In this document: one piece after another, positions 23,857 to 38,986 of the stretch
Layout: each line of letters starts with the position of its first letter
Numbering within the stretch: position 1 is the stretch's first letter
DNA from: an uncultured Christensenellaceae bacterium
GTDB taxonomy: Bacteria > Bacillota > Clostridia > Christensenellales > UBA3700
Direction of reading: 5' to 3'
Assembly (NCBI GenBank): GCA_944381365.1
Contig: CALWKW010000006.1
Location: forward strand, 1-64,000
DNA: 64,000 bases
The notes under the pieces: generated by a model
The model's database searches: none
What the model was told of the DNA's origin: nothing
Seen by the model: the letters and a program-made list of their open reading frames with translations, nothing else
Translations under genes and position numbers: made by a program

Positions 23857-24306
23857 TTAGATAGGCAAAACTTTTTCTGCTCTGAATTTTTCTACTTCTG
23901 CACCATCCCTGAAAAAGAAAACTTTTACGAGTCCGTCATTAGAAGCAAACACAACTATCAATTCAGCATTTATATCGACAGAAGGATTTTTTGCCTGAAT
24001 GTCTGTGAGATTGGGAGTCTCATAATCTGTCGCCACCACAGGATAAGGATAATCGTCTCCGTACAATTCTACTATTTTGTTTACTACGCTTTGTGAATTG
24101 ATTACACCGCCCATTCTGTTGATATCCGTCATGGCATTCAATGCTTCAGTAGCAATTTGATCCACATATATATCGTCAGCTTGGTCTGTGGTACTGCTCA
24201 AATAATGCATGGTAACAGGAGTAGCAACTACCGCCAAAATACCAATTATAGCTACCACTACCAACAATTCTACGAGCGTAAAACCTTTTTTAGTATTTTT
24301 TCTCAT
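23857..24306 (-). CDS. Type IV pilin-like protein
   Basis: The class III signal peptide MRKNTKKG is followed by the hydrophobic N-terminal helix FTLVELLVVVAIIG with E5, the hallmark of type IV pilins cleaved by PilD. The 149-residue protein has a globular C-terminal part with no recognised domain. It is the last gene of the pilus operon and probably encodes a minor pilin or an alternative major pilin. The ribosome site GGGGG is only about three bases from the ATG. Confidence 0.88.
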   Translation of the reverse strand: MRKNTKKGFTLVELLVVVAIIGILAVVATPVTMHYLSSTTDQADDIYVDQIATEALNAMTDINRMGGVINSQSVVNKIVELYGDDYPYPVVATDYETPNLTDIQAKNPSVDINAELIVVFASNDGLVKVFFFRDGAEVEKFRAEKVLPI

Positions 24307-24322
24307 ATGCCCCCTATTATCT

Positions 24323-24769
24323 TTATTCTACTGCCCAGCCAGAACCCGTCTCACTAGGAACAAAAGAAAATGATGATACATCAGCCTCTCCCCATTGTAC
24401 CTCAAATGAAGAATAAGGGAAAGTAGCCATCTTACTTGAAATATCGCTTGCAAAAACCGTAACTTTGAATTGGTCTTCGCCGTCTTTTTCTACTAAGACT
24501 TTTGTCACATATTCGCAATAAGGCATTTGCTCGCCAAGTATATCGAGCATACCTTGTTTTGTGACCATACCATCTTGTTTGGTGGCAATGATTGCCATAC
24601 TTTCGGTAATGGTATTTATCACATTTAAAGTTTCGTTGTCAGCCATGGACTTTTTTGCATCTCCCACATACTTTATAGTAGCAGGAACAGCCACAGCCGC
24701 TATTATTGCAACGATTGCAATAACCACAATCAGCTCTACCAAAGTAAAGCCTTTCTTTTTGCCTCTCAT
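24323..24769 (-). CDS. Type IV pilin-like protein, paralogue of the upstream pilin
   Basis: A short leader (MRGKKKG) precedes FTLVELIVVIAI with E5. The first 35 mature residues are nearly the same as in the next upstream pilin (24852-25328), while the globular parts differ, which suggests tandem duplication followed by divergence. It is 148 residues long, has the ribosome site GGGGGAG, and is preceded by a strong hairpin at 24795-24821. Confidence 0.88.
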   Translation of the reverse strand: MRGKKKGFTLVELIVVIAIVAIIAAVAVPATIKYVGDAKKSMADNETLNVINTITESMAIIATKQDGMVTKQGMLDILGEQMPYCEYVTKVLVEKDGEDQFKVTVFASDISSKMATFPYSSFEVQWGEADVSSFSFVPSETGSGWAVE

Positions 24770-24851: not shown

Positions 24852-25328
24852 TTAGGTGCCACTGGGAGCAGTAGCTGCTGTCCAACCAGCTTCGCTGTTA
24901 GAACCGGGAGCTGTCAAAGTAATAGCTGCAGGAATTGACAATGCATAGCTTGATGTAGAATATGTCTTGGATGCATTAGCACCATCTTGTGTAGAAACTA
25001 CTGTAATTGTGAAAGAACCGTCAGCTACTGCTGTCACTTCTACTTTCTCTGTATGCTGTGTAGTAGGCATCATTTTATCCAACAATTCCTTGAGGCTGCC
25101 TTCGTCAAGAACGCCGTCACCGGTAGCCATGAGGTCAGTAAATCCTGTCTCTATTGTGCTCAAAATGCTGCTTGTTTCACTCTTTGCAGTAGTCACTCTT
25201 GCTTCGTTAACATATTTGATTGTTGTAGGTACGGCAACTGCTGCGATGATTGCGATAATCGCGATTACTACAATAAGTTCTACGAGAGTAAAACCTTTTT
25301 TCTTAGATTTTTTCAAATTAGCTATCAT
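24852..25328 (-). CDS. pilA: Type IV pilin, probable major pilin
   Basis: The leader MIANLKKSKKKG is followed by FTLVELIVVIAI with E5. The mature part is rich in Ala, Thr and Ser, 158 residues in all. It is the first of three pilins in the operon, has a good ribosome site (CGGAGGG), and a stable hairpin follows its stop. These points favour it as the major pilin, though this is inference. Confidence 0.88.
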   Translation of the reverse strand: MIANLKKSKKKGFTLVELIVVIAIIAIIAAVAVPTTIKYVNEARVTTAKSETSSILSTIETGFTDLMATGDGVLDEGSLKELLDKMMPTTQHTEKVEVTAVADGSFTITVVSTQDGANASKTYSTSSYALSIPAAITLTAPGSNSEAGWTAATAPSGT

Positions 25329-25398: not shown

Positions 25399-27093
25399 TC
25401 AGGTGACAGTATAAATTATACGCTTGTATTCATCAAGACTCGTCACACCTTTATGAACGAGTTCTCTCAAGCTGTCTGCCAAGAACACCGCTCCGTTTTT
25501 GATAGCTTCTGTTCTGATTTCGTCTGTTCCCTTGCCCGCTGTAATCATCTTTTTCATATTGTGGTCAAGTTCGACTATTTCGTAGACAGCTATACGACCG
25601 CTGTACCCCGAATTGTTGCATTCAGGACAGCCTACCGGCTCGTATATATCTTTTATCGTCATATCCTCAAGCAAGTTTTGGTCCGTATTGTCTGCGGGAC
25701 GCTTTTTCTTGCAATAAGGACAAAGTCTTTTTACAAGTCGCTGAGCTATAATAGCATTGACTGAAGCAGATACCAAATAAGGAGGTATTCCCATATCAAT
25801 CAAACGAACTATCGTAGCGATTGAGTCATTGGTGTGCAGTGTGGACAATACCAAGTGACCTGTGATAGCGGCACGAGTAGCGATTTCTGCGGTCTCGTAG
25901 TCACGAATTTCTCCGACCATTATTACATCAGGGTCCTGACGCAAAAGCGATCTCAAGGCACTTGCAAAGGTAAGTCCTGCTTTCGAGTTTGTTTGTACCT
26001 GATTGACACCCATCATTTGTTTTTCGACAGGGTCTTCAACGGTAGTGATATTTATATTAGGTTGTCTCAACTTATTGAGTACCGCATACAATGTAGTTGA
26101 TTTACCTGAACCCGTAGGACCTGTAACCAATATAATTCCATTGGGGGCACTCAATATATGATTGAATTTTTCGATATTTTCTTTGCTCATACCGAGCTGT
26201 TCGAATGACAAAAGATTTTCGCCGCCGGTATTGAGTAGACGCATAACGCACTTTTCGCCGTAAATTGTGGGAAGCGTGCTCACACGAAGGTCTACTTTGA
26301 ATTCGTCTGTGATATAAGCAAATCTGCCGTCCTGAGGCACACGCTTTTCTGCGATATTCATACCCGACAAAATCTTGATACGGGATATGATGCTGTTGAG
26401 GGAACTTGCGGCAAGTCTCATGGATTCAACAAGGTCGCCGTCAATACGCATACGAATGATTACTTCTTTCTCAAACGGCTCGATGTGAATATCTGATACC
26501 TGACGGAGATATGCTTGATGTACAAGGTTGTTGACAAGTTTTACGACAGGAGTGTTGTTTACGCTTGTCTCGATTTCATCCATCTTCTTTGTCGTATCGC
26601 TCGACATAACATTGATGGTCTGCTGTACATCTTCTTGTTCTTCATGATAGAAAAGCTCTACATTCTTGTAATATCTTTCGATAGCATTCATAATACGCTC
26701 TTTTGTAGATAATACAATGATGGTCTCCATCTTCGAGCTCATCTTGATGTCTTCGAGTACGCCCATTTCTTCAGGATTGGAAATAGCAACTACTATCTTG
26801 TTGCTGCGGATATCGATAGGCATCAATTCGTATCTTCTTGAGAGAGTTTCGGGAACCAATTTAAGTACTTCAGGACGCTTTACTACCAATTCCTTGTTGA
26901 TAAACTGGCAATCCATACGCTCGGCATAAGCCTCGAGCAACTGGTCCTCATTGAGGATGCCACGGGATATGAGTATTTGTCCTATTTCTTCATCGGGATG
27001 ACTTCTCTGCCAACGCTTTGCGTCATTGAGTTGTTCTTGTTTTATAACCTTATTGTTGAGAAGAATTTCCCAAATCGCTGAATTATTATCCAC
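25399..27093 (-). CDS. pilB: Type IV pilus assembly ATPase PilB/GspE
   Basis: The 564-residue secretion ATPase powers pilus extension from the cytoplasm. It has an N-terminal GspE/MshEN-type domain, Walker A (GPTGSGKST, near 328), Walker B (DPDVIMVGEIRD, near 391) and the tetracysteine zinc motif of PilB/GspE (CPYC...CPEC, about 455-490). The start is GTG, set by GGAGG seven bases upstream. It is the only such ATPase in the operon; there is no PilT retraction ATPase. Confidence 0.95.
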   Translation of the reverse strand: MDNNSAIWEILLNNKVIKQEQLNDAKRWQRSHPDEEIGQILISRGILNEDQLLEAYAERMDCQFINKELVVKRPEVLKLVPETLSRRYELMPIDIRSNKIVVAISNPEEMGVLEDIKMSSKMETIIVLSTKERIMNAIERYYKNVELFYHEEQEDVQQTINVMSSDTTKKMDEIETSVNNTPVVKLVNNLVHQAYLRQVSDIHIEPFEKEVIIRMRIDGDLVESMRLAASSLNSIISRIKILSGMNIAEKRVPQDGRFAYITDEFKVDLRVSTLPTIYGEKCVMRLLNTGGENLLSFEQLGMSKENIEKFNHILSAPNGIILVTGPTGSGKSTTLYAVLNKLRQPNINITTVEDPVEKQMMGVNQVQTNSKAGLTFASALRSLLRQDPDVIMVGEIRDYETAEIATRAAITGHLVLSTLHTNDSIATIVRLIDMGIPPYLVSASVNAIIAQRLVKRLCPYCKKKRPADNTDQNLLEDMTIKDIYEPVGCPECNNSGYSGRIAVYEIVELDHNMKKMITAGKGTDEIRTEAIKNGAVFLADSLRELVHKGVTSLDEYKRIIYTVT

Positions 27094-27245: not shown

Positions 27246-28271
27246 TTAAAAACCGAGTAGTTTTGTATAGGCATTAATTATTAAATCGCCAAAATAGATA
27301 GTTATAATACTAGCAAGCACAATAAAAGGTCCGAAAGGTATAGCTTTGCCTTTGGGGATATCGTCTTCATCCTCATCTTCATCTGAGTTTTCCTTCTCCG
27401 ATTGAGACTCATTTGCGATAGTATCCCTTTCTTCTTCCTGACAGCTTTCAGACTTAATATCCTTAGCTTCCTGATCATTTACAAAATTGTTTTCTGAAGT
27501 TTGATTTTCGCTATCGTCAATATTTATAGAATTTATCTTTTCTTCTGATGACTTTTCATCTTCGACTATCTCATCGCTCAAAGAGTTTTCGCTATCGCTA
27601 TTCTCTTCATCGTCTTGAGCTTTTTTCTTTTGGATTATCATATAAATTACCGAAAAAATACCGCCGACTATTACAGATATTAAAAAAATCAAGAGTATTT
27701 TTTGCCAGCCGAAAAGCAAACCGAGTACAAAATAAAGCTTTACATCACCAAGTCCCATGCCGCCGAAAAGTGCGATTATGAGCATAGGAATACTTATACA
27801 CACGCAGCCTATAAGTTTTGATTGCCACGAAACACCCGATATAGGGAAAAATGTGATAAGTCCTAAAAGCAAAATAGTGATATTGCTTGAATCGGGAATC
27901 TCGAATGTATCGAAGTCTATCATTGCTATTACAATAAGCACCGATACCAAGATATCGTATATAAGCGTCATCCAGCTAATACCGAATACTGCAAAATTGA
28001 CTATCCAAAGAATGCAGTTGAGAAGCTCGATTACAGGATATCTCAAAGAAATATGAGCTTTGCAATTTCTGCATTTGCCACGCAAAATTATATAACTTAA
28101 TACAGGAATATTGTCATAAGCCTTTATCTGTGCTCCGCAATTAGGACAAAAGGAGCGAGCTTTAGAAAAAAATTGCCCCTTGGGCAAGCGATAGATAACA
28201 ACATTCAAAAAACTACCTATCGCCAAACCCGTCAAGGCACTTAAAATATAAAACAAAACATTCAATCCCAT
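27246..28271 (-). CDS. pilD: Prepilin peptidase PilD with acidic cytoplasmic insert
   Basis: This is an aspartyl membrane protease that cleaves and N-methylates prepilins. The N-terminal methylase domain keeps the four zinc cysteines (C42, C45, C67, C70). The catalytic aspartates are D119 and D176, the latter in GMGLGD. Unusually, residues about 215-305 are an Asp/Glu/Ser-rich stretch inserted before the last span (KAIPFGPF), where family members normally have a few residues. It lies between the minor pilin genes and pilB. Confidence 0.93.
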   Translation of the reverse strand: MGLNVLFYILSALTGLAIGSFLNVVIYRLPKGQFFSKARSFCPNCGAQIKAYDNIPVLSYIILRGKCRNCKAHISLRYPVIELLNCILWIVNFAVFGISWMTLIYDILVSVLIVIAMIDFDTFEIPDSSNITILLLGLITFFPISGVSWQSKLIGCVCISIPMLIIALFGGMGLGDVKLYFVLGLLFGWQKILLIFLISVIVGGIFSVIYMIIQKKKAQDDEENSDSENSLSDEIVEDEKSSEEKINSINIDDSENQTSENNFVNDQEAKDIKSESCQEEERDTIANESQSEKENSDEDEDEDDIPKGKAIPFGPFIVLASIITIYFGDLIINAYTKLLGF

Positions 28272-28317: not shown

Positions 28318-28956
28318 TCAGTTGTAATAGCAAACAAAATTGTTTTGTCCTTCAAATACTACTTCCAATTCGTTTTTCTCTACATTCAAAAGATTTATAG
28401 TCTCTTTTCCCGATGCTTTAAGATTTAGATTGTCATCGAAGATATAGATATTTATGCATACAGACAAGTACTTATCTTTTCTAGCATTATATACAGGCGA
28501 TATAGAAAATTGTGCTTTGTACTTATCGTAAGACTGCTCGTTGAGAAGAGGCTGACTGCCTACGGGCAATTTATTGCCTTGAGTATCTATATCGACAATT
28601 CCGTCAGGATTGCTGGGAAGGATGTATATTCTACCGTTGTAGAAAAATAAAGCATGGTGCGTTTTTAAAAGTTCGCTATCGATAGTCGTGCCATCGCTGT
28701 CGCTGTAAGGGGTAGCTTCTAAAGCTATATCCTGTACGGCATAAAGCTTTTGTTTGACTACCGCAAGCACCAAATCCTTTACATCGTCTGCCACAATAGT
28801 CTGCGAACCTCTAGAAAAAGTAAGACTTGCCGAATTGGTAATCAAAAATACTGATAAAGTCAGAATACTCATTATGGCAATGGAAACGAGCAGCTCTACC
28901 AAAGTAAAGCCTTTTTTCCATTTGTTTTTTGTCTTTCTCAACTTCTTTATCAACAT
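28318..28956 (-). CDS. Minor pilin/pseudopilin with class III signal peptide
   Basis: The leader (16 residues, ending WKKG) precedes FTLVELLVSIAI with E5. The 212-residue length and the Ser/Asn-rich hydrophilic part fit GspJ/ComGF-like minor pilins of the tip complex. It is in the pilus operon, downstream of two other prepilin-type genes. The precise subtype is an inference from size and order. Confidence 0.8.
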   Translation of the reverse strand: MLIKKLRKTKNKWKKGFTLVELLVSIAIMSILTLSVFLITNSASLTFSRGSQTIVADDVKDLVLAVVKQKLYAVQDIALEATPYSDSDGTTIDSELLKTHHALFFYNGRIYILPSNPDGIVDIDTQGNKLPVGSQPLLNEQSYDKYKAQFSISPVYNARKDKYLSVCINIYIFDDNLNLKASGKETINLLNVEKNELEVVFEGQNNFVCYYN

Positions 28957-29000: not shown

Positions 29001-29459
29001 TTACGGACCTACTACCGTAAAATCATCTTCGCCCTCAGCATTTGTCCTTCCCAGATAAATGGTATATTTGATACCGTTGGGGGAAGTATAAACAAGAAAA
29101 TCGCCTTTGAGCTGAGCCTTTATTTTTGAATTGTTGAGCTCTATCGTAAGATATTCTTCTCTGCCTTCATCCTCGTTATAAACTCTTACCGTGACACCGT
29201 TTGAGATGTTTACTTCTCCTGAGCCTATCTCGCCGGGGGTAGTAGAGTCCCCTTCGATCGCCTGAATGAGCAATTCTCTGTCTCTGTCGTACATAATCGA
29301 CATATTTACCATACGAGTGGATGTAAACATAAATGTCGAAAACATAAATGCCATCATAGAGAATATTGCCACACTGACGATAGCCTCCATCAAGGTGAAG
29401 CCTTTTTTGTGCTTTAAGAAAAACGATTTAATTTTGTTGAGTCTCTCTTGTCTTTTCAT
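29001..29459 (-). CDS. Minor pilin with class III signal peptide
   Basis: The leader of 20 residues ends in HKKG and is followed by FTLMEAIVSVAIF with E5, resembling GspI/PilV-type minor pilins. I start at the ATG at 29459, one base after the stop of the giant upstream gene; a TTG at 29477 is in frame but lies inside that gene. The near-contact of the two genes suggests translational coupling and a shared complex. Confidence 0.8.
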   Translation of the reverse strand: MKRQERLNKIKSFFLKHKKGFTLMEAIVSVAIFSMMAFMFSTFMFTSTRMVNMSIMYDRDRELLIQAIEGDSTTPGEIGSGEVNISNGVTVRVYNEDEGREEYLTIELNNSKIKAQLKGDFLVYTSPNGIKYTIYLGRTNAEGEDDFTVVGP

Positions 29460-29460
29460 A

Positions 29461-32400
29461 TTAATAATACCCCACAAAATCCCAAATTGCTACGCCGTAA
29501 GCATCGACTTCGTCAAAGCTGTTGCCATACTCGAACGAGCTGTCGGTAATAAGCGGCGGTTCAGTATTCGTATAAGAATACTTTGTGTAATTGTCAATAG
29601 TGATCTGATAATTAGACTCACTACCACTCATTATAAATCCTTTTACTGCAAGACTTCCTTCAGAGAAGCAATATCCTGCACTTGTAGTAGGAAGAGCATC
29701 GAGTGCTACATAGCTTTCAGGTGCATAAACAAAAGTGTTTTTGAGTATTGTTCCTGCTCCGAATCTCATAGTACTTACATCGTTTGAAATAATATACAAG
29801 CTGTCAGAGTGATTTGTCACGCCCTCGAGATTGTGTATTTCGCCTATATTGCAATTCAAACCGGTCAACAAATGAGGATTCGTCATGCTATATGTATTGT
29901 TTGAACCATACAGATACAAGAAGGTCATATGTCCGCCTTTCAGAATAATGTCGCAATTATTTCCTAGCTGCAAACCTTCATTGAATTTGATATGCAAGTT
30001 GGCACCGATAGAATTGAATTCAAGTTTCATATTGTCGCTCAACAAAACTTTTGTAGTAAACTCAACGCTGGAATTTATTTCAATCGTAGTTCCGTCAATA
30101 TATCTTGCACCGCCCTTGCTTACCAAATCACTGAGATTTGCTGCCTGAATATATTGTACGGTACCAAGTTCTGTTGTGTTGGGATCTCCGTCAAGATCGG
30201 ACTTGGGAGCATTCCAAGCACGCATGTTTACTTCTTTGCTTTCCCATGATTCTTCATTAGGGAAACCTATTGTCAACAAATCGAGTCCGCCCTCATTATT
30301 GAGCTGGGTATTGTAAATAGCCTGATTATCGAATTTATTGAGCGAATAATTTTTTATTGCCTGAAGAGCACTTTCAAAAGTAGTACCGCCAAATGATTGA
30401 CCGGTAATTCTGCCTACTATGCTAGAAAGTCCGCTTATGATTTCGCTTTCCGATACTCTGGAGCCTGATGTCTTATTGTTGCTGTTTACACCGATAGTGC
30501 CCGAATAATATTTTACGGTATCGATATTTGTATCCTCGAGGTCAAGTACACCTGATCTGCTGTATACATTTCTTACGAGGACTGACTTTTCTCTGTTTTC
30601 CCATACCCAGTTTCCGACATTGTTACCCAAAAGATAACCGCCTTCTTCTGTATAAATATTCGTAAATACTATGTCATTGACTCTTGTATCTGCGAGATAT
30701 TGTCCTTTCTGGCTTTGTGCGATAGATACTTTCTTTGCGATAATATTGTCTACCTCAAGATACGAGCATCTCTGAGGTCCTGTCCATACATCCATATCTC
30801 CGCTGTATGTTCGCCTTAAGTTGAGGAATAAATAACCGTTTACGACCAAATCGCCATAGACATCTATTTTTTCAGTATTATGACTATCGAATGCAGATGA
30901 TGTCCATTTTGCCACATTGACAATTGTATTGACATTTGAATAATATGTTCCGACAATACTTGAGTTTGTAATATTTACGCCTTTATCCGCATTTGCGTAA
31001 TACTGTTCATCGCTTATTACATTGACATTATTGTAGCCTCTTGCATTTTCATTGGGTGTGCCGTCAGAATTCAATCCTGCTACGATAACATTACCGCCTG
31101 TTATTGCCTGTGTAGGTCCGTTGTATGTAAAGTTGTCATGCTCATAATAAACTCTGTCATATACATTGCCTTGCAAAGGGAAAAGCGAGCCGAAAAGATT
31201 TTGACCCATTCCTTTGGGATTATTGTCATAAACAGTAAGGTCATCGCCATAAATCTGACACCAGTCCATCTGCATATTCGAGCCTCTGAAATAAATGTTT
31301 CCGAATACTGTGGTATCGAAAAGATAGAGATTGTCGCCATTGCAATATATATCGCCCACGATGACAGAGCTTGAAATCTGCAAATCGCCTTGAACCATGA
31401 CATCTCCGTAAATCGTCACATTTCTCGAATAGTCTATATCGTCACCAAGGCCTCTGCCCATATAACAGAATCCGTCAATTATAAGATCGTCAAGAGCATA
31501 GATGTTGTTTTTGATGCCGGCATAAGCATTTTCTGTATTGAATGAATCGAGGTTTTCTATTCTCGCTTCCTTCCACAGCCAAATATCGCCGTTTATTCTC
31601 ATCTTTGTTTTTTCGATAGGAGCTTTTGCCGAATTTGCGTGGTCGAAGAATACGTCTGTGTTGAAATTATGCTCTACATATCCGTCACTATCATAATTGC
31701 CGTTTGCATCATACTTATAATAGTTGTTTGTCTGTTTTCTGTGAGTATCATAGTTCCATGTCATGTAATTTTCTTTATCGCCTTGATCCTTATCCCAAAG
31801 TCCTAGCAAAGCACGGGACTGAACATACATATCGCCGTTCAAAATTGTGCCCACCTGCGTACCATTGCTTGCAGAGCCTGAGAAAAGATAAATCTCTGCC
31901 CAATCCGCAGGATATAGATTGCCGTTGTCAGCTCTTAAAGGATAATTGTTGACATCAAATTCTTTGGTATGACCTTTAAGTGTCGTATTTCCGTCATATA
32001 CCTGAACATTGCTGTAATAGTCTTTGAGTTCCTGATTTTCGGCAAGTCCGTCAATAATATTGCCGTTGGCATCTCTCACATAATCTCCGGGGGTGGTGAT
32101 TGTTATATTGCCGTTTACGGTATCGCCGACCATACTTACAATAGGATTTGACCAGCAGAAGCTGTTTGCAAAAATCTTTTTGAGTTCTTCTGCACCTTTG
32201 CTTGTTTTTGCAATACGCATTCTTATAGTGCTGGTATAACCTCTGTATGTAGCCACTGCCTCAAGGCTCATCTCTGTGCATTCCTCATTGGTGTATCTTA
32301 CTCTTAAGTCGCAAGTACCCATAAGGTTGGTAAAAAGTCCTTCTGTATAGATTACAGAAGAAGGAGATAAGTCGCCGGTCGTAATAAGTCCTGAGGCACC

Positions 32401-32727
32401 GCCTACTTTTCCCACATTGCAATATACCTGTGTGATATCTGCATCGGGATTATTCTTTATTTCTTCATACTTTGCATAAAGCACATTGTTTATTACTTCA
32501 AAAGCTTCATCGCTGTCATACAGCAGATCTGCGAGAGCATTTGCCGCAGATTCTGCCGTATAATAAGCTTGTTGTTTGCATACTCTGGAGTAAGAATAGT
32601 TGAACGAACGCATAGCAATAGTAGTGAACATAGTGCCCATTACCACAAGCATTGCGATAGATACCAAAACTACCATAAGCGACATACCTTTTTTAGAACG
32701 CTTAAACAATTTTTTCCATCTATTCAT
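29461..32727 (-). CDS. Giant PilX/GspK-like pilus protein with beta-helix-like ectodomain
   Basis: The N-terminus (leader ending SKKG, then MSLMVVLVSIAML) is a PilX-type prepilin helix. It lacks E5, as in GspK-type subunits that cap a pilus. The remaining 1050 or so residues are far larger than usual PilX proteins (150-250). Around residues 410-500 and 600-690, short strand-turn units of the type GDVxVxGDLxI recur, as in right-handed beta-helices or polymer-forming repeats. It is likely an exposed tip protein, perhaps an adhesin; the binding target is unknown. It sits between pilO and two minor pilins, so all three may form the tip. Confidence 0.75.
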   Translation of the reverse strand: MNRWKKLFKRSKKGMSLMVVLVSIAMLVVMGTMFTTIAMRSFNYSYSRVCKQQAYYTAESAANALADLLYDSDEAFEVINNVLYAKYEEIKNNPDADITQVYCNVGKVGGASGLITTGDLSPSSVIYTEGLFTNLMGTCDLRVRYTNEECTEMSLEAVATYRGYTSTIRMRIAKTSKGAEELKKIFANSFCWSNPIVSMVGDTVNGNITITTPGDYVRDANGNIIDGLAENQELKDYYSNVQVYDGNTTLKGHTKEFDVNNYPLRADNGNLYPADWAEIYLFSGSASNGTQVGTILNGDMYVQSRALLGLWDKDQGDKENYMTWNYDTHRKQTNNYYKYDANGNYDSDGYVEHNFNTDVFFDHANSAKAPIEKTKMRINGDIWLWKEARIENLDSFNTENAYAGIKNNIYALDDLIIDGFCYMGRGLGDDIDYSRNVTIYGDVMVQGDLQISSSVIVGDIYCNGDNLYLFDTTVFGNIYFRGSNMQMDWCQIYGDDLTVYDNNPKGMGQNLFGSLFPLQGNVYDRVYYEHDNFTYNGPTQAITGGNVIVAGLNSDGTPNENARGYNNVNVISDEQYYANADKGVNITNSSIVGTYYSNVNTIVNVAKWTSSAFDSHNTEKIDVYGDLVVNGYLFLNLRRTYSGDMDVWTGPQRCSYLEVDNIIAKKVSIAQSQKGQYLADTRVNDIVFTNIYTEEGGYLLGNNVGNWVWENREKSVLVRNVYSRSGVLDLEDTNIDTVKYYSGTIGVNSNNKTSGSRVSESEIISGLSSIVGRITGQSFGGTTFESALQAIKNYSLNKFDNQAIYNTQLNNEGGLDLLTIGFPNEESWESKEVNMRAWNAPKSDLDGDPNTTELGTVQYIQAANLSDLVSKGGARYIDGTTIEINSSVEFTTKVLLSDNMKLEFNSIGANLHIKFNEGLQLGNNCDIILKGGHMTFLYLYGSNNTYSMTNPHLLTGLNCNIGEIHNLEGVTNHSDSLYIISNDVSTMRFGAGTILKNTFVYAPESYVALDALPTTSAGYCFSEGSLAVKGFIMSGSESNYQITIDNYTKYSYTNTEPPLITDSSFEYGNSFDEVDAYGVAIWDFVGYY

Positions 32728-32797: not shown

Positions 32798-33802
32798 TTA
32801 TACTATTGTAATCGTGACATAGCTTACATTATCTTTTAATTCTGACTTGAAATAACCTTGTTTTTTATCGCCCACTGCTCTTACAAAGATATTGTGCTGA
32901 CCTGCTTCGAGCTGACCTGCTTTCAATGTGATAGAAAGCTGACCGGAATTGGTAGAAGGAGTCAAAGTGCTGTTGGGGATAACTGTGAAGTATGCTTTTC
33001 CCGACTCATCAAATTGTACGGTATAAAGCTCGTACTTGACTGTTCCGTTTATTACATTGCCATCGATATCCTTTTCTACGGCATTGAATTTGATTGTCAT
33101 ACCGTCATTGCTTACGCCTTCTACATCGGCAAGCAACTTAGGAAGCGTGTCTGTATTTACCTTAACTTGCATCATATATCTGATTGTAAAGTTGCCGTTG
33201 AAATATTCTACTTTGTTCTCGATAGGATTCTCGGGATCTTCGGGATTGTCTGTATAGTTTGTCTCAACATTGTAAATGACATTAATGTTTGAGATATACA
33301 TACTCTTATTTGTCTCTATCTCGTCAAGGAACGAGTAGATATTGTCGATATTCTCTGTTCTGTATGAAGTATTGCAATCTACATATTTTACTGCATAAGA
33401 AGCATTGATACCGTCATATTCGACATTTTGATATGTATCCACTATTTTCCAGCCCGATGTAGAATAATTTGTGAAATTATGTCTTTTGAAGAGCTCTATC
33501 ATTTTACGGTTGACATCGTAAATAATCTTTTCTTGATCTTCAGAAGGCTGGTCAAGTACGATATTGTTGTTTGAATAATAGAAATCCAACAATTCGTCAT
33601 ACTTTTTGTCTATGCTTGCCGTATTGATTGCCGCAAGTCTTGCATTGAGCACATCAACGGCCTCTTTCTTTTCTACTACTTCTTCTTTTATTGCGTCAAG
33701 CTGGTCATTGGCAGGCACGATTCCGTACATATAGAACACTGCCACAAAAATTACTACTGCCAGAATAACCAACATCATTTTATCTTTATTAGTAAGTGTC
33801 AT
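32798..33802 (-). CDS. pilO: PilO-like pilus alignment protein
   Basis: A single N-terminal membrane span (about residues 12-32) is followed by a coiled-coil (VVEKKEAVDVLNARL) and a large outer domain, the PilO plan. At 334 residues it is longer than typical PilO (about 200), with an extra C-terminal beta-rich part. The start at 33802 overlaps the pilN stop by four bases (ATGA) and follows GGGAGG, so the two are translationally coupled. Confidence 0.78.
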   Translation of the reverse strand: MTLTNKDKMMLVILAVVIFVAVFYMYGIVPANDQLDAIKEEVVEKKEAVDVLNARLAAINTASIDKKYDELLDFYYSNNNIVLDQPSEDQEKIIYDVNRKMIELFKRHNFTNYSTSGWKIVDTYQNVEYDGINASYAVKYVDCNTSYRTENIDNIYSFLDEIETNKSMYISNINVIYNVETNYTDNPEDPENPIENKVEYFNGNFTIRYMMQVKVNTDTLPKLLADVEGVSNDGMTIKFNAVEKDIDGNVINGTVKYELYTVQFDESGKAYFTVIPNSTLTPSTNSGQLSITLKAGQLEAGQHNIFVRAVGDKKQGYFKSELKDNVSYVTITIV

Positions 33803-34446
33803 ACGAAAGCCTCCCAATTAATATTGAATGACAAGTTCATGGAAATGGTATATTCAGTACCATCGCCTTCTACGGGCAAGCCGGGGAAGTTGTAAGCTAC
33901 ATTAGAAAAACGCTCTTTGTTTTTTCTAGACTCCTCGTTGTCCTGTACACCTGACATAAATTCTGCAAAAGCAAGTGCGTCCTCGTGATTTTTTGTCATA
34001 TATGACAAAGACACGCTGTTGTCAGAGATGCTTAAAGATTGAATGGAAATAGCAGGATCCAAGCCGCCGGCTGTCTCTGTATGAGTCTCTGCATAATTGA
34101 ACAACAAGTTGATAAAATCAGAACTCATTTTTATTCTTTGCTCTGCCGATTGGTTGGGATAAACTACGGAAATTACCTGACTTACTCTGTCGGTGTATTC
34201 CTGCTTTGTCTGAGCATATTGCTCTTCGAGTTTGACTATTTCGTCTTCTCTTTCGAGCTGTTTGTTGTACTCATCGATAAGATCTTGGTTTTTGGCAATT
34301 TCTACTTTTGCCGAAACAAACAAGAATACCATAATTCCTACAAGAGCTACCATGCCTACTGCGATAATAGCCGTCATGCTGGAAGAACTCTTTTTCTTGG
34401 TCGATTGATTTAAACTTTCTAATAGATTTATATCACGCTTTGCCAT
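33799..34446 (-). CDS. pilN: PilN-like pilus alignment protein
   Basis: The N-terminal INLLE motif (residues 5-9) is the conserved PilN segment that binds PilM. One membrane span (about 25-47) and a coiled-coil follow. The 215-residue length is normal. The start at 34446 is chosen because GAGGAGG lies just upstream and because the INLL motif should be near the N-terminus. It works between PilM and PilO as the inner-membrane alignment complex. Confidence 0.85.
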   Translation of the reverse strand: MAKRDINLLESLNQSTKKKSSSSMTAIIAVGMVALVGIMVFLFVSAKVEIAKNQDLIDEYNKQLEREDEIVKLEEQYAQTKQEYTDRVSQVISVVYPNQSAEQRIKMSSDFINLLFNYAETHTETAGGLDPAISIQSLSISDNSVSLSYMTKNHEDALAFAEFMSGVQDNEESRKNKERFSNVAYNFPGLPVEGDGTEYTISMNLSFNINWEAFV

Positions 34447-34457
34447 AACTTTCCTCC

Positions 34458-35384
34458 TCACCTCTTCAACATAGACAGATTCATAAGACCGCCTATTGTA
34501 CAGAAGAAATCGTTGTATTCTTCTATGCCTATACTCTCTACATTGTCAGGCAATTCGAGATTGAGTACATTGAGATTGTGCTTTTCTGCCACGGGTTTTC
34601 TGAGCAAGTCGAGTTTTTCCTCGGTACCTGCAAGAACGATATCGTTGAAATCGTTTTCGGGGAAACGCTTTTTATAAAGCTCGACAGCACTTCTTATAGT
34701 ATTCATTACATCATTTACGAAATACATCTTGTCATTTTTGAATTTCATGGACTGCATGGAAATTACGCTCTTTGACATCGAATACTTAAATTTCTTGTCC
34801 ACTATAAAGCTGATTACTATCGCACTTTCTCTTATCTCGACAAAAAGATAATTGTCAGGCAATCTATCTTGTATATATGCAAGATGCTTGAGTGTGCAAT
34901 TTTGTCCGATGTCTATGGATACGATATTACACATAAGAGTCTTTCCGAGTTTTTGCATATCGCCGAGGATTTTGTTGTCGACATAAGTGACGAATACTTT
35001 AGATTGTTTGAGTCCGTCAACTTTGTTTTCGTCTACTATGTAATCTACGGTGTTGTTTCTTGCGAGTTTTTCATCACTGAATATTTCGTTTTTAATCAAT
35101 GCGATTGTCTTTGCTCTGTTGAGAGTAGGCACCAACATTTCTCTGAACGATATATTGATATTGTCAAGTATAATTTTTACTTTTTTGTTTCTTACTTCTT
35201 CTCCGAGTTCTCTCAAAGCATTGATTACTACGGATTCGAGCTTTTCATAGCCCTTATCATCGGGTGAATCGAGATAATCGCTGGGCGTAGCTATTGAATA
35301 AAGACTGTTGATAACAACCTTTTTCTTAGAAGCACTGCCCTCGAGTATCTTTACGGTATCACCGCTCAAATGCAAAACATACAT
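34458..35384 (-). CDS. pilM: PilM-like actin-fold pilus protein
   Basis: The 308-residue cytoplasmic protein fits the actin-like PilM family in size, position and secondary-structure pattern (VEIRESAIVISFIVD in the second half). It binds the INLL peptide of PilN and links the alignment complex to the motor. The individual residues are divergent, so the call relies partly on the operon order pilC-pilM-pilN-pilO. The ribosome site GGAGG is ten bases from the ATG. Confidence 0.75.
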   Translation of the reverse strand: MYVLHLSGDTVKILEGSASKKKVVINSLYSIATPSDYLDSPDDKGYEKLESVVINALRELGEEVRNKKVKIILDNINISFREMLVPTLNRAKTIALIKNEIFSDEKLARNNTVDYIVDENKVDGLKQSKVFVTYVDNKILGDMQKLGKTLMCNIVSIDIGQNCTLKHLAYIQDRLPDNYLFVEIRESAIVISFIVDKKFKYSMSKSVISMQSMKFKNDKMYFVNDVMNTIRSAVELYKKRFPENDFNDIVLAGTEEKLDLLRKPVAEKHNLNVLNLELPDNVESIGIEEYNDFFCTIGGLMNLSMLKR

Positions 35385-35404: not shown

Positions 35405-36604
35405 TTAACCGATTGTTTCATACAATGTAAACATAGGCATCATTACGCCCATCAATACAAAGCCTACTACGACTGCCATTACCATCATCATTACAGGTGA
35501 GATAAGTCCGATAAGTCTCTTTATTGCGTTGCTCGATTCTTCTTCGAAATAGCTGGCAGTCTGCATCAAAATCTCGTCCAATGCACCTGACTGTTCGCCT
35601 ACGAATGTCATTGTCATAAGCATAGGGTCAAAAGCATCGACATGCGAAAAGGCCTCTGCAATCGAACTACCCTTTCTGATATCTACTACTGCCTCTCTGA
35701 TTCTCATCTCAACATACTTGTTTGTGATAATCTCGGCACCCATTGCGATAGCATCCAACAACGGTATACCTGTGGCATACAATGTAGAAAGCGAACGGGC
35801 AAAAGTAGATGTGTATATCATCTTTTGCAAAGGTCCTATTTTGGGAATTTTTATAAGTAATTTACCTGAAAAAATCGCTACCTGAGGAATTCTCTTGATA
35901 ATAGGTATGATTGTAATCAATGCAAAAACAATCAAAGCCACCACATACCACTGCGTGACGATAAAGTTTTTGATAGCCATAAGCATTTTTGTAGGCAAAG
36001 GCAATTCAGTACCTTCGGGCATCATGCTCGTCATCTGAGGCATTACGAAAACGCTCATTACGATAACTACCAAAAAACATACCACCAACAATATGATAGG
36101 ATAGCTCATGGCACTCTTGATTTGATTGCGTTGTTTGTGTTCTTTTTCAAAATACTCCGCAAGAGTCGTCAACGATTCGTCAATCTTACCATTCATCTCG
36201 CCTGACTTGACCATGCTGATGTACAATGCAGGAAAAGTATTGTCCATCTTTGCCATGGCAGAAGCGAGCGATTCACCTTTCTGCAACTGCTCAAACAAAC
36301 TTGCGAGTACTGCTCTCAAGCGTTTTTTCTTTTTTTCTGTACGCTCGTATAGCATCTTCATACTCATACTCAAGTCCAATCCGGCACGAAGCATTGATGA
36401 AAGCTGTCGGCTGAAAGCAATAAGATCGGAAACTTTCAAAGCTTTTGTACGGGCTTGTTTTGCCTGATTGACGATACGATAGTCAAAACATCGCAAGCCT
36501 TGCTCGTGCAAAAGATCTCTAAAAGATTTGTCGTCCGCTGCGACCAAAGTACCCTTGGTCATCTTGCCTGCGGAATCCATAGCTTTATAAGTATACTTTT
36601 GCAA
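35405..36604 (-). CDS. pilC: Type IV pilus platform protein PilC/GspF
   Basis: Two repeated GspF domains are seen (about residues 60-190 and 265-385), with the start YKAMDSAGKMTKG and the conserved KSGEMNGKIDESL and VGEQSGALDEIL segments. It is the inner-membrane platform that couples PilB to pilin insertion. The start is TTG with AGGGGG seven bases upstream. It is the first gene of the pilus operon and lies behind an extended -10 promoter. Confidence 0.95.
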   Translation of the reverse strand: MQKYTYKAMDSAGKMTKGTLVAADDKSFRDLLHEQGLRCFDYRIVNQAKQARTKALKVSDLIAFSRQLSSMLRAGLDLSMSMKMLYERTEKKKKRLRAVLASLFEQLQKGESLASAMAKMDNTFPALYISMVKSGEMNGKIDESLTTLAEYFEKEHKQRNQIKSAMSYPIILLVVCFLVVIVMSVFVMPQMTSMMPEGTELPLPTKMLMAIKNFIVTQWYVVALIVFALITIIPIIKRIPQVAIFSGKLLIKIPKIGPLQKMIYTSTFARSLSTLYATGIPLLDAIAMGAEIITNKYVEMRIREAVVDIRKGSSIAEAFSHVDAFDPMLMTMTFVGEQSGALDEILMQTASYFEEESSNAIKRLIGLISPVMMMVMAVVVGFVLMGVMMPMFTLYETIG

Positions 36605-37312: not shown

Positions 37313-38986
37313 ATGGATAATAAAAAAACAAATAAGTCTTCGAATTCATTTGTATACACTACAAAAGATCCTACAATCACAAGAGTAGTTTATTCATTAT
37401 TTATCTTTGTGATGCTCGTTACGCTTGTTGTAAATTTGATGGCTATTTCATTGACTGCATCAGCTAATCAACACAACGGCATGTTCTTTATGGACGGCAA
37501 ATATTATGTGGCTTGTTCCGGTAATTCCGACAATGCCCCCGGAGCTGTATTCGAGCAAAAGACTTCTTATGCTACCGGCGATAAAGTAGGCTATGTAGAG
37601 TTTGATTCTCAGGGTATTGCAAAAGTGACTGTATGCAATATCTCCAAGGTGGATGAAAATGGAAACTTCTCACTCACAAATACTCAAGGTCAGGAATTCA
37701 AGACCGGCGTAGCAAAAAATCAGATTCTCGGTAAGTTTGTAGAGACTCTTCCCGCTCTTACCGTAAGCTTTGTCGGAAGCAATGCAGGCTTTTTGGTACT
37801 TTGCATAGCCCTTGTAGCTCTTACCGTTGTGATGGGACTCCTCTATTTCCTCGTTTCTCCCAGAGGTGCGAAGAAGTTTGACAAAAAAGAGGACGACAAA
37901 AAGTCTTCTCCTGCCGCAGCTATCTTCAGCGACAATGCTCAGGTGCTCATGAAGTACATCTCTACCGATGACAATATCGAGCCCTTGGAACTCGGAGAAA
38001 ACGAAGTTACCGCAAACCTTAATGTAAACTATTATAATTCAGTAAAACTTCACAACGGCGAAGTTTATACCGTAGTAAAGAAATATCCCGAAGCTGTAAG
38101 AACTCTCGAAGAATACGGTGCTTCCGATATGGATATCATCAAAATGAATATGATCGGCAATACAGAATTTGAAAAACTTATTCTTTTGCCTCATAAAGAA
38201 AAGACTATGTCTATGAATGATATCATTGATTTCGTAAGCGGTCTTGACGGCGTATATTGTGTGAAAAAGCGTGGTATTCTCAACTGGTCTTTCAAATACA
38301 AATCAAAGACTGTCATTATCGTAAAACAAGACGAAGACAACGACGGCTTCAAAGTTGCGGTAAAAGTATATCCCGATGCTGCTACAAAGCTCAATGTAAT
38401 CTATAAAGCACTCGAAGATTCCACATTCCCTATCGGACCTTTCTGGTATATGTTCAACAACTTCAGAAATCTCCCCGGCAATGTTATCAAGTGGTTGATT
38501 ACAGAATCCTTGAAGATCTCTAAGTGGCAACAGACAAAAGCCGATATTTTGAGAGATACTCCTACTCTCGAAAGCATGCAGGTTGATACCGTTGCGTTGA
38601 GAAATGCTATCCTCTCAGGCACAAAGGTGACAAATATGGATAAGTTTACCGTAATCACTCAGATTGCCGACAACGATACCGTCAAGTACGACACCGTACT
38701 CAAGACAGGTTTTGGAAAACTCGATATGAGCGATTATACAAAGGAAGTGACAATGCTCGTTCCCAATACAAAGAATTTGCAATTCAGCATACTTACAAAG
38801 AAGAGTATGGGCGATGCACTCCTCACTTCGCTTTGCAACGAACTTACAGAGCTTTGCACTCCTCCTGCCGACTATGTAGTACCTACTCAGTCTGATACTC
38901 CCGAGCCTACAATCAAAAAGGCAAATCCCACAAAATCAGCTTCAGGTGCAAAAGTCGTAAAACGCACGACAACAAAGAAAAAATAA
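37313..38986 (+). CDS. Membrane protein with degenerate signal-peptidase (SipW-like) N-terminal half and cytoplasmic domain
   Basis: Two membrane spans (about 25-48 and 160-183) enclose an external segment with the strand pattern of SipW-type signal peptidases (GDKVGYVEF near residue 88, QILGKFVETLP near 140). The catalytic Ser motif (SxMxP) and the usual Lys are not found, so it is probably inactive. Residues 184-530 form a cytoplasmic part I do not recognise, and the protein ends in a Lys/Thr-rich basic tail. It is divergent from the pilus operon, with its own promoter and terminator. The SipW resemblance is by eye and should be treated as tentative. Confidence 0.55.
   Translation: MDNKKTNKSSNSFVYTTKDPTITRVVYSLFIFVMLVTLVVNLMAISLTASANQHNGMFFMDGKYYVACSGNSDNAPGAVFEQKTSYATGDKVGYVEFDSQGIAKVTVCNISKVDENGNFSLTNTQGQEFKTGVAKNQILGKFVETLPALTVSFVGSNAGFLVLCIALVALTVVMGLLYFLVSPRGAKKFDKKEDDKKSSPAAAIFSDNAQVLMKYISTDDNIEPLELGENEVTANLNVNYYNSVKLHNGEVYTVVKKYPEAVRTLEEYGASDMDIIKMNMIGNTEFEKLILLPHKEKTMSMNDIIDFVSGLDGVYCVKKRGILNWSFKYKSKTVIIVKQDEDNDGFKVAVKVYPDAATKLNVIYKALEDSTFPIGPFWYMFNNFRNLPGNVIKWLITESLKISKWQQTKADILRDTPTLESMQVDTVALRNAILSGTKVTNMDKFTVITQIADNDTVKYDTVLKTGFGKLDMSDYTKEVTMLVPNTKNLQFSILTKKSMGDALLTSLCNELTELCTPPADYVVPTQSDTPEPTIKKANPTKSASGAKVVKRTTTKKK

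Follow-up and report, generated by a model that had tools for sequence, protein, structure and literature searches.

A giant PilX/GspK/ComZ-type prepilin of the Christensenellales with a predicted solenoid head and a probable place at the pilus tip

Within the window, by which we mean the whole 64,000 nucleotide stretch of DNA analysed, the gene at 29461-32727 on the minus strand encodes a prepilin of 1088 residues which sequence, profile and model evidence place in the PilX/GspK/ComZ type. On balance it seems to be a modular tip-cap pilin of the GspK/ComZ kind, belonging to a retractable type IV pilus and carrying a very large binding head, and it is probably an enlarged version of the solenoid-headed tip pilin design known from Thermus ComZ. 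A more detailed proposal, which we put forward tentatively, is that a solenoid like those of ComZ and the ice-binding proteins (IBPs) sits on the pilin and is interrupted by a bactofilin-like solenoid, so joining two heads that clostridial PilX proteins seem to use singly, and that a membrane protein encoded at 37313-38986 is a new obligate partner.

The gene, its operon and its distribution

The coordinates of the gene are exact; the plus strand over the same interval is packed with stops, a Shine-Dalgarno-like GGGAGG box lies 5' of the ATG, and a single base separates the stop codon from the ATG of the following minor pilin. The gene sits between pilO and two minor pilin genes in a complete type IV pilus cluster of monoderm type, in which every gene is on the minus strand. 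Upstream are the PilC platform protein (T2SSF; 35405-36604), a PilM-like protein (34458-35384; PilM_2 below cut-off), a PilN-like protein placed between PilM and PilO and with no significant family match (33799-34461), and a PilO-like protein assigned by position and a T2SSM match below cut-off (32798-33817). Downstream are two minor pilins with Glu5, in the positions of GspI/PilV (29001-29459) and GspJ/PilW (28318-28956), then the PilD prepilin peptidase (27246-28271), the PilB extension ATPase with MshEN and T2SSE domains (25399-27093) and three PilA-like pilins (24852-25328, 24323-24769 and 23857-24306). PilT is encoded on a different contig of the source genome, which belongs to a gut bacterium and is a draft of 1.86 Mb in nine contigs; the whole-genome data throughout are metagenome-assembled genomes. 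No secretin was found in the genome, as expected for a monoderm, and hence there would be no outer-membrane pore to limit the size of a pilin head. A search for PilY1 (PF05567) gave no match in the genome, and none in the control genomes either.

Adjoining pilC is a divergent gene on the plus strand (37313-38986) for a protein of 557 residues in which membrane segments are apparent by eye. It has no significant Pfam or NCBIfam match, was found only alongside this pilus cluster, and is a candidate new type IV pilus component.

Full-length homologues of the giant pilin, of 1101-1240 residues and in the same operon, occur in ten other Christensenellales genomes. In named collections the relatives appear as uncultured Christensenellaceae, other Clostridia and Candidatus Limadaptatus stercoripullorum, from metagenome assemblies. 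Within its own GTDB family the giant pilin is present in four of 46 genomes; the matching PilB, PilT and 557-residue membrane protein occur in the same four, and PilT is confined to these type IV pilus-positive genomes of the giant-pilin genus. A second genus, in another family, has the giant pilin in eight of ten genomes (in one of them the gene falls on two contigs); the order of genes is unchanged, and the gene for the 557-residue protein again adjoins the cluster. The operon place is shared by two genera: PilC, M, N and O lie upstream and, as far as the contigs reach, the downstream side has two minor pilins, PilD, PilB and pilins. A broader survey, of 391 genomes, gave no other full-length homologue; its matches were to the N-termini of shorter PilX-type proteins or to short motifs, several of which lay in lipoproteins. 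Scanning of contigs found no loci with the single protein as query and six with an alignment.

The giant pilin is the fastest-changing gene of its operon: identity within the genus is 95-96% for PilB and 39-54% for the pilins, as against 35-36% for the giant pilin and about 20-25% for its residues 500-860. That the highest divergence of the operon falls here is as expected of a contact surface.

Across the family a strong full-length PilB-type ATPase match was seen in only five of 46 genomes, and ComEC in 40. One locus in another genus of the family (L016, G042:C31) has a PilB/PilC pair of different type beside a response regulator-like gene.

The N-terminus and the family assignment

The features of a class III signal peptide are present, in that a short, basic leader ending in KKG (residues 1-14; 32686-32727) is followed by a hydrophobic helix, the pilin α1 (residues 15-71; 32515-32685). 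Cleavage after the leader would yield a mature protein beginning M-S-L-M-V, with valine where Glu5 would be. All 11 full-length homologues carry V or M at position +5, whereas the neighbouring pilins of the operon all retain Glu5. GspK itself lacks Glu5, and a missing Glu5 is a known exception among GspK-type caps. Residues 1-71 match shorter clostridial PilX proteins in profile-profile comparison (probability 96%, E 3.4e-9), and the slice 1-70 matches eight of eight short relatives tested (iE 5e-9 to 1e-4), no shuffle scoring below 1. The first-pass annotation had read a PilX/GspK-type start and a helix lacking Glu5 from the single sequence, and both are borne out by these comparisons.

Curated families detect the protein poorly. 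The giant pilin has no Pfam match, whether to PilX_N (PF14341), bactofilin (PF04519) or DUF3494; its homologues reach at best 16.1 bits against the PilX_N gathering score of 25.5, and the shorter clostridial PilX proteins are themselves weak PilX_N matches (15.0-21.7 bits) below that same cut-off. The NCBIfam GspK model (NF037980) gives 13.2 bits over residues 13-74 against a curated cut-off of 130. Sequence searches of the PDB with the single protein and with profiles of four and 13 rows found no match to any chain.

The ectodomain had been described as four to six times larger than usual, and in view of the sizes of GspK and diderm PilX that figure is fair; it does not hold against clostridial PilX-type proteins of 373-871 residues, compared with which the excess is about 1.25-3 times.

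Repeats, model and modules of the head

Strand-turn repeats, proposed from the single sequence, stood up to statistics: the giant pilin has 10 copies of the motif G-[D/N]-hydrophobic-x-hydrophobic against 2.2 expected from shuffles (P ~5e-4), and every homologue has eight to 11 against about two expected. Strict repeats span only some 130 residues, approximately 370-500. Within these, residues 430-500 have a sharp hydrophobicity period of 6.0 residues (reached in none of 1000 permutations), which implies three six-residue strands per turn; stretches tested outside 370-500 had no significant period.

Slices of the head used as queries gave sequence relatives for two regions. Slice 365-500 matches the bactofilin-like solenoids of two clostridial PilX proteins of 491-500 residues (iE 1.5e-7 and 1.9e-6); one of the two proteins scores above the Pfam bactofilin cut-off. 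Slice 855-1065 matches the DUF7305-like end of a 373-residue PilX from the same order (iE 0.0026), and among the giant-pilin homologues one matches DUF7305 at 925-1051 (E 2.4e-4, below cut-off); the slice match is only suggestive, since a different slice gave iE values as low as 2e-4 with shuffled sequences. For slices 178-300 and 540-860 the only matches were to shuffled sequences, and no sequence relative is claimed for them.

A first AlphaFold2 model built from four sequences was poor (pLDDT 38) and was not relied on alone, but it already matched ComZ over residues 49-178 (Z 7.4). The model from 13 sequences has a mean pLDDT of 63 and a pTM of 0.68; pLDDT is for the most part 75-88 in the inner solenoid core and 70-90 in the C-terminal solenoid, about 65 in the pilin part, and below 50 for some 300 residues. 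In a Foldseek search of the PDB three ComZ chains rank top at E 0.008-0.04, values not significant alone, and no PDB match reaches E 0.001. VIA ranks ice-binding proteins first: DUF3494 structures align to this middling-confidence model with Z about 14 over some 195 of 220 residues, the first and last aligned residues being about 179 and 1060. Third in this ranking is 4NU2, the ice-binding protein named in the ComZ paper as nearest to the ComZ solenoid (PMC6561018), and ComZ itself aligns across pilin and solenoid with Z 11.3 over 262 residues.

As an ice-binding fold of about 220 residues is spread over 179-1060, most of 300-855 would be an insertion, holding the period-six solenoid. The order suggested by the model is a pilin domain, then an IBP-like solenoid made from discontinuous sequence, with a second solenoid in between; this nesting we infer from the first and last aligned residues of the fold matches. 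Mapped back to the DNA, the predicted modules are a pilin globular module of one helix and four strands (residues 72-175; 32203-32514), the first part of the outer IBP-like solenoid (about residues 178-300, the end approximate; 31828-32196), where IBP alignments begin at 178-182, and the inner solenoid core (residues 370-495; 31243-31620), marked out by periodicity, model and sequence matches. There follow a rapidly diverging stretch of the insertion (residues 500-860; 30148-31230), the second part of the outer solenoid, of DUF7305/IBP-like character from model, fold and sequence matches (residues 855-1060; 29548-30165), and a conserved C-terminal tail of low pLDDT ending in W-x-F-x-GYY (residues 1061-1088; 29464-29547).

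The model contains both a pilin helix and a β-helix; the first-pass annotation, which suggested a long right-handed β-helix, had named a predicted structure lacking either element as grounds to refute its proposal. A solenoid ectodomain is retained from that proposal, and right-handedness is favoured because matches to right-handed structures superpose more closely, mostly at about 3-5 Å, than left-handed hexapeptide enzymes do (about 11-13 Å, with GlmU and LpxD at about 11). A single long rigid rod finds no such support: the model suggests two nested solenoids accompanied by loosely predicted stretches, and strict repeats are limited to about 370-500. A viral fold library yielded no significant match to the model, so nothing here points to descent from a phage tailspike.

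Position, ligand and relation to known tip pilins

A place at the tip is probable by analogy with ComZ and GspK, from the operon place, the missing Glu5 and the sheer bulk of the protein, and it is in this respect that the earlier description of a probable pilus tip adhesin finds support. PilD would remove the leader, judging from the cleavage motif and the neighbouring gene. Without Glu5 the usual contact to a pilin above would be impossible, for which reason the giant pilin may start the fibre and the two minor pilins may follow beneath it, on the pattern of GspK-GspI-GspJ. The pilin domain would then carry an ice-binding-protein/ComZ-like solenoid formed, in the model, from the sequence flanking an insertion of about 550 residues, and the insertion would hold a second, bactofilin-like solenoid, as the model and the matches to shorter relatives suggest. 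The bulky head would be the contact surface of the pilus where a ligand is met, and PilT, encoded elsewhere, would retract the fibre.

ComZ of Thermus thermophilus (PDB 6QVI; PMC6561018) has a pilin module bearing an IBP-like solenoid, as the model suggests for the giant pilin, and shares with it minor pilin neighbours and a proposed tip position, although the giant pilin is about twice as long, acidic and from a monoderm host, with a second solenoid region apparently inserted and no detectable sequence similarity to ComZ or any other PDB chain. The solenoid-headed PilX proteins of Clostridia, of 373-500 residues with a PilX_N-like start and a bactofilin/FapA-like or DUF7305-like head, resemble it in N-terminus and operon logic, and their solenoids match giant-pilin residues 365-500 or 855-1065; each one tested matches at most one solenoid region, whereas the giant-pilin family appears to combine both. 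GspK, the tip pseudopilin of type II secretion, is likewise encoded with two further minor pilins but has an α-helical inserted domain (PMC6561018). The giant pilin is also encoded with two further minor pilins in the manner of PilU-PilV-PilK, the proposed tip complex of C. difficile (PMC9556784). In PilB and PilC of Streptococcus sanguinis (PMC8179133, PMC9934059) a binding module is similarly grafted on a pilin at a proposed monoderm pilus tip, the modules there being C-terminal vWA and lectin domains rather than solenoids, with known ligands. The tapirins of Caldicellulosiruptor (PDB 6N2B, 4WA0; PMC7142884) are Firmicute β-helix adhesins that align to the model at Z 10.4 across 226 residues, the earlier four-sequence model having given Z 8.7; they bind cellulose and no sequence similarity to the giant pilin was found.

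On these comparisons the ComZ architecture, seen in one protein of Thermus, would reach into gut Clostridia as well; they also suggest that many unannotated large PilX proteins, of 373-1240 residues, are solenoid-headed tip pilins. The nested two-solenoid arrangement, if true, would to our knowledge be larger than any tip pilin architecture yet described. Targets of type IV pili in monoderm gut bacteria are mostly unknown, and with 11 full-length sequences, a conserved operon and two head modules that appear to occur together here but singly in relatives, head function can be dissected by parts.

As the ligand of the head we lean, by analogy, to an insoluble or cell-surface carbohydrate as candidate. 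That leaning over DNA comes from the acidic ectodomain, the tapirin fold matches, the failure of ComEC to track the pilus, and the binding of host glycans by S. sanguinis PilC from its proposed tip complex (PMC9934059); taken as candidates, the host glycans considered by the first-pass annotation, DNA, cellulose and other plant polysaccharide stand level on the evidence. A head acting as a DNA receptor for natural transformation, with the pilus pulling DNA to ComEC, we regard as unlikely, even if ComZ binds DNA (PMC6561018) and is the closest solved architecture by fold matches, and the genome encodes ComEC and PilT. The ectodomain pI is 4.3-4.8 in 11 of 11 homologues (4.4 in the giant pilin), and acidic residues outnumber basic ones about two to one, a weak argument and not a decisive one given that ComZ has no obvious positive patch either (PMC6561018). 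ComEC, moreover, does not track the pilus, nearly all of the 40 family genomes encoding it being without this cluster; present with and without the pilus, it was set aside as an uninformative marker of DNA uptake.

It is likewise rather improbable that the protein is an assembly cap only, starting the pilus as GspK does with a head that is a spacer, or a shield through the cell wall, and has no specific ligand: the GspK-like position and missing Glu5 would suit this, yet a head of about 900 residues is kept in 11 proteins of 1088-1240 residues despite fast sequence change, a pattern suggestive of a contact surface under selection. The fold matches include structures of pectin lyase, alginate lyase and tailspikes, which could point to an enzyme at the tip, namely a lyase or hydrolase of the right-handed solenoid kind that cuts polysaccharide; this we consider very unlikely, as such matches are expected for any β-solenoid, the top ranks go to ice-binding proteins (VIA) and ComZ (Foldseek), and no catalytic family of Pfam or NCBIfam matches the sequence. 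A tip-cap pilin with a binding head remains the reading we prefer.

Some further proteins came to light in the searches. Proteins of about 200 residues matching the solenoid region were considered as bactofilins and rejected as such, several of those read being predicted lipoproteins with a similar motif; at L108, L110, L121 and L123 the C-terminal part of such predicted lipoproteins resembles the giant-pilin solenoid (GDLYV...NFQLVDTTVEGNVYF). At L091 (9117-12171) there is a tandem pair of PilX-type proteins with bactofilin-like heads, of 500 and 491 residues, and open frames of 778-871 residues whose N-termini match the giant pilin lie at L118 and at places in G513, G459, G503 and G770.
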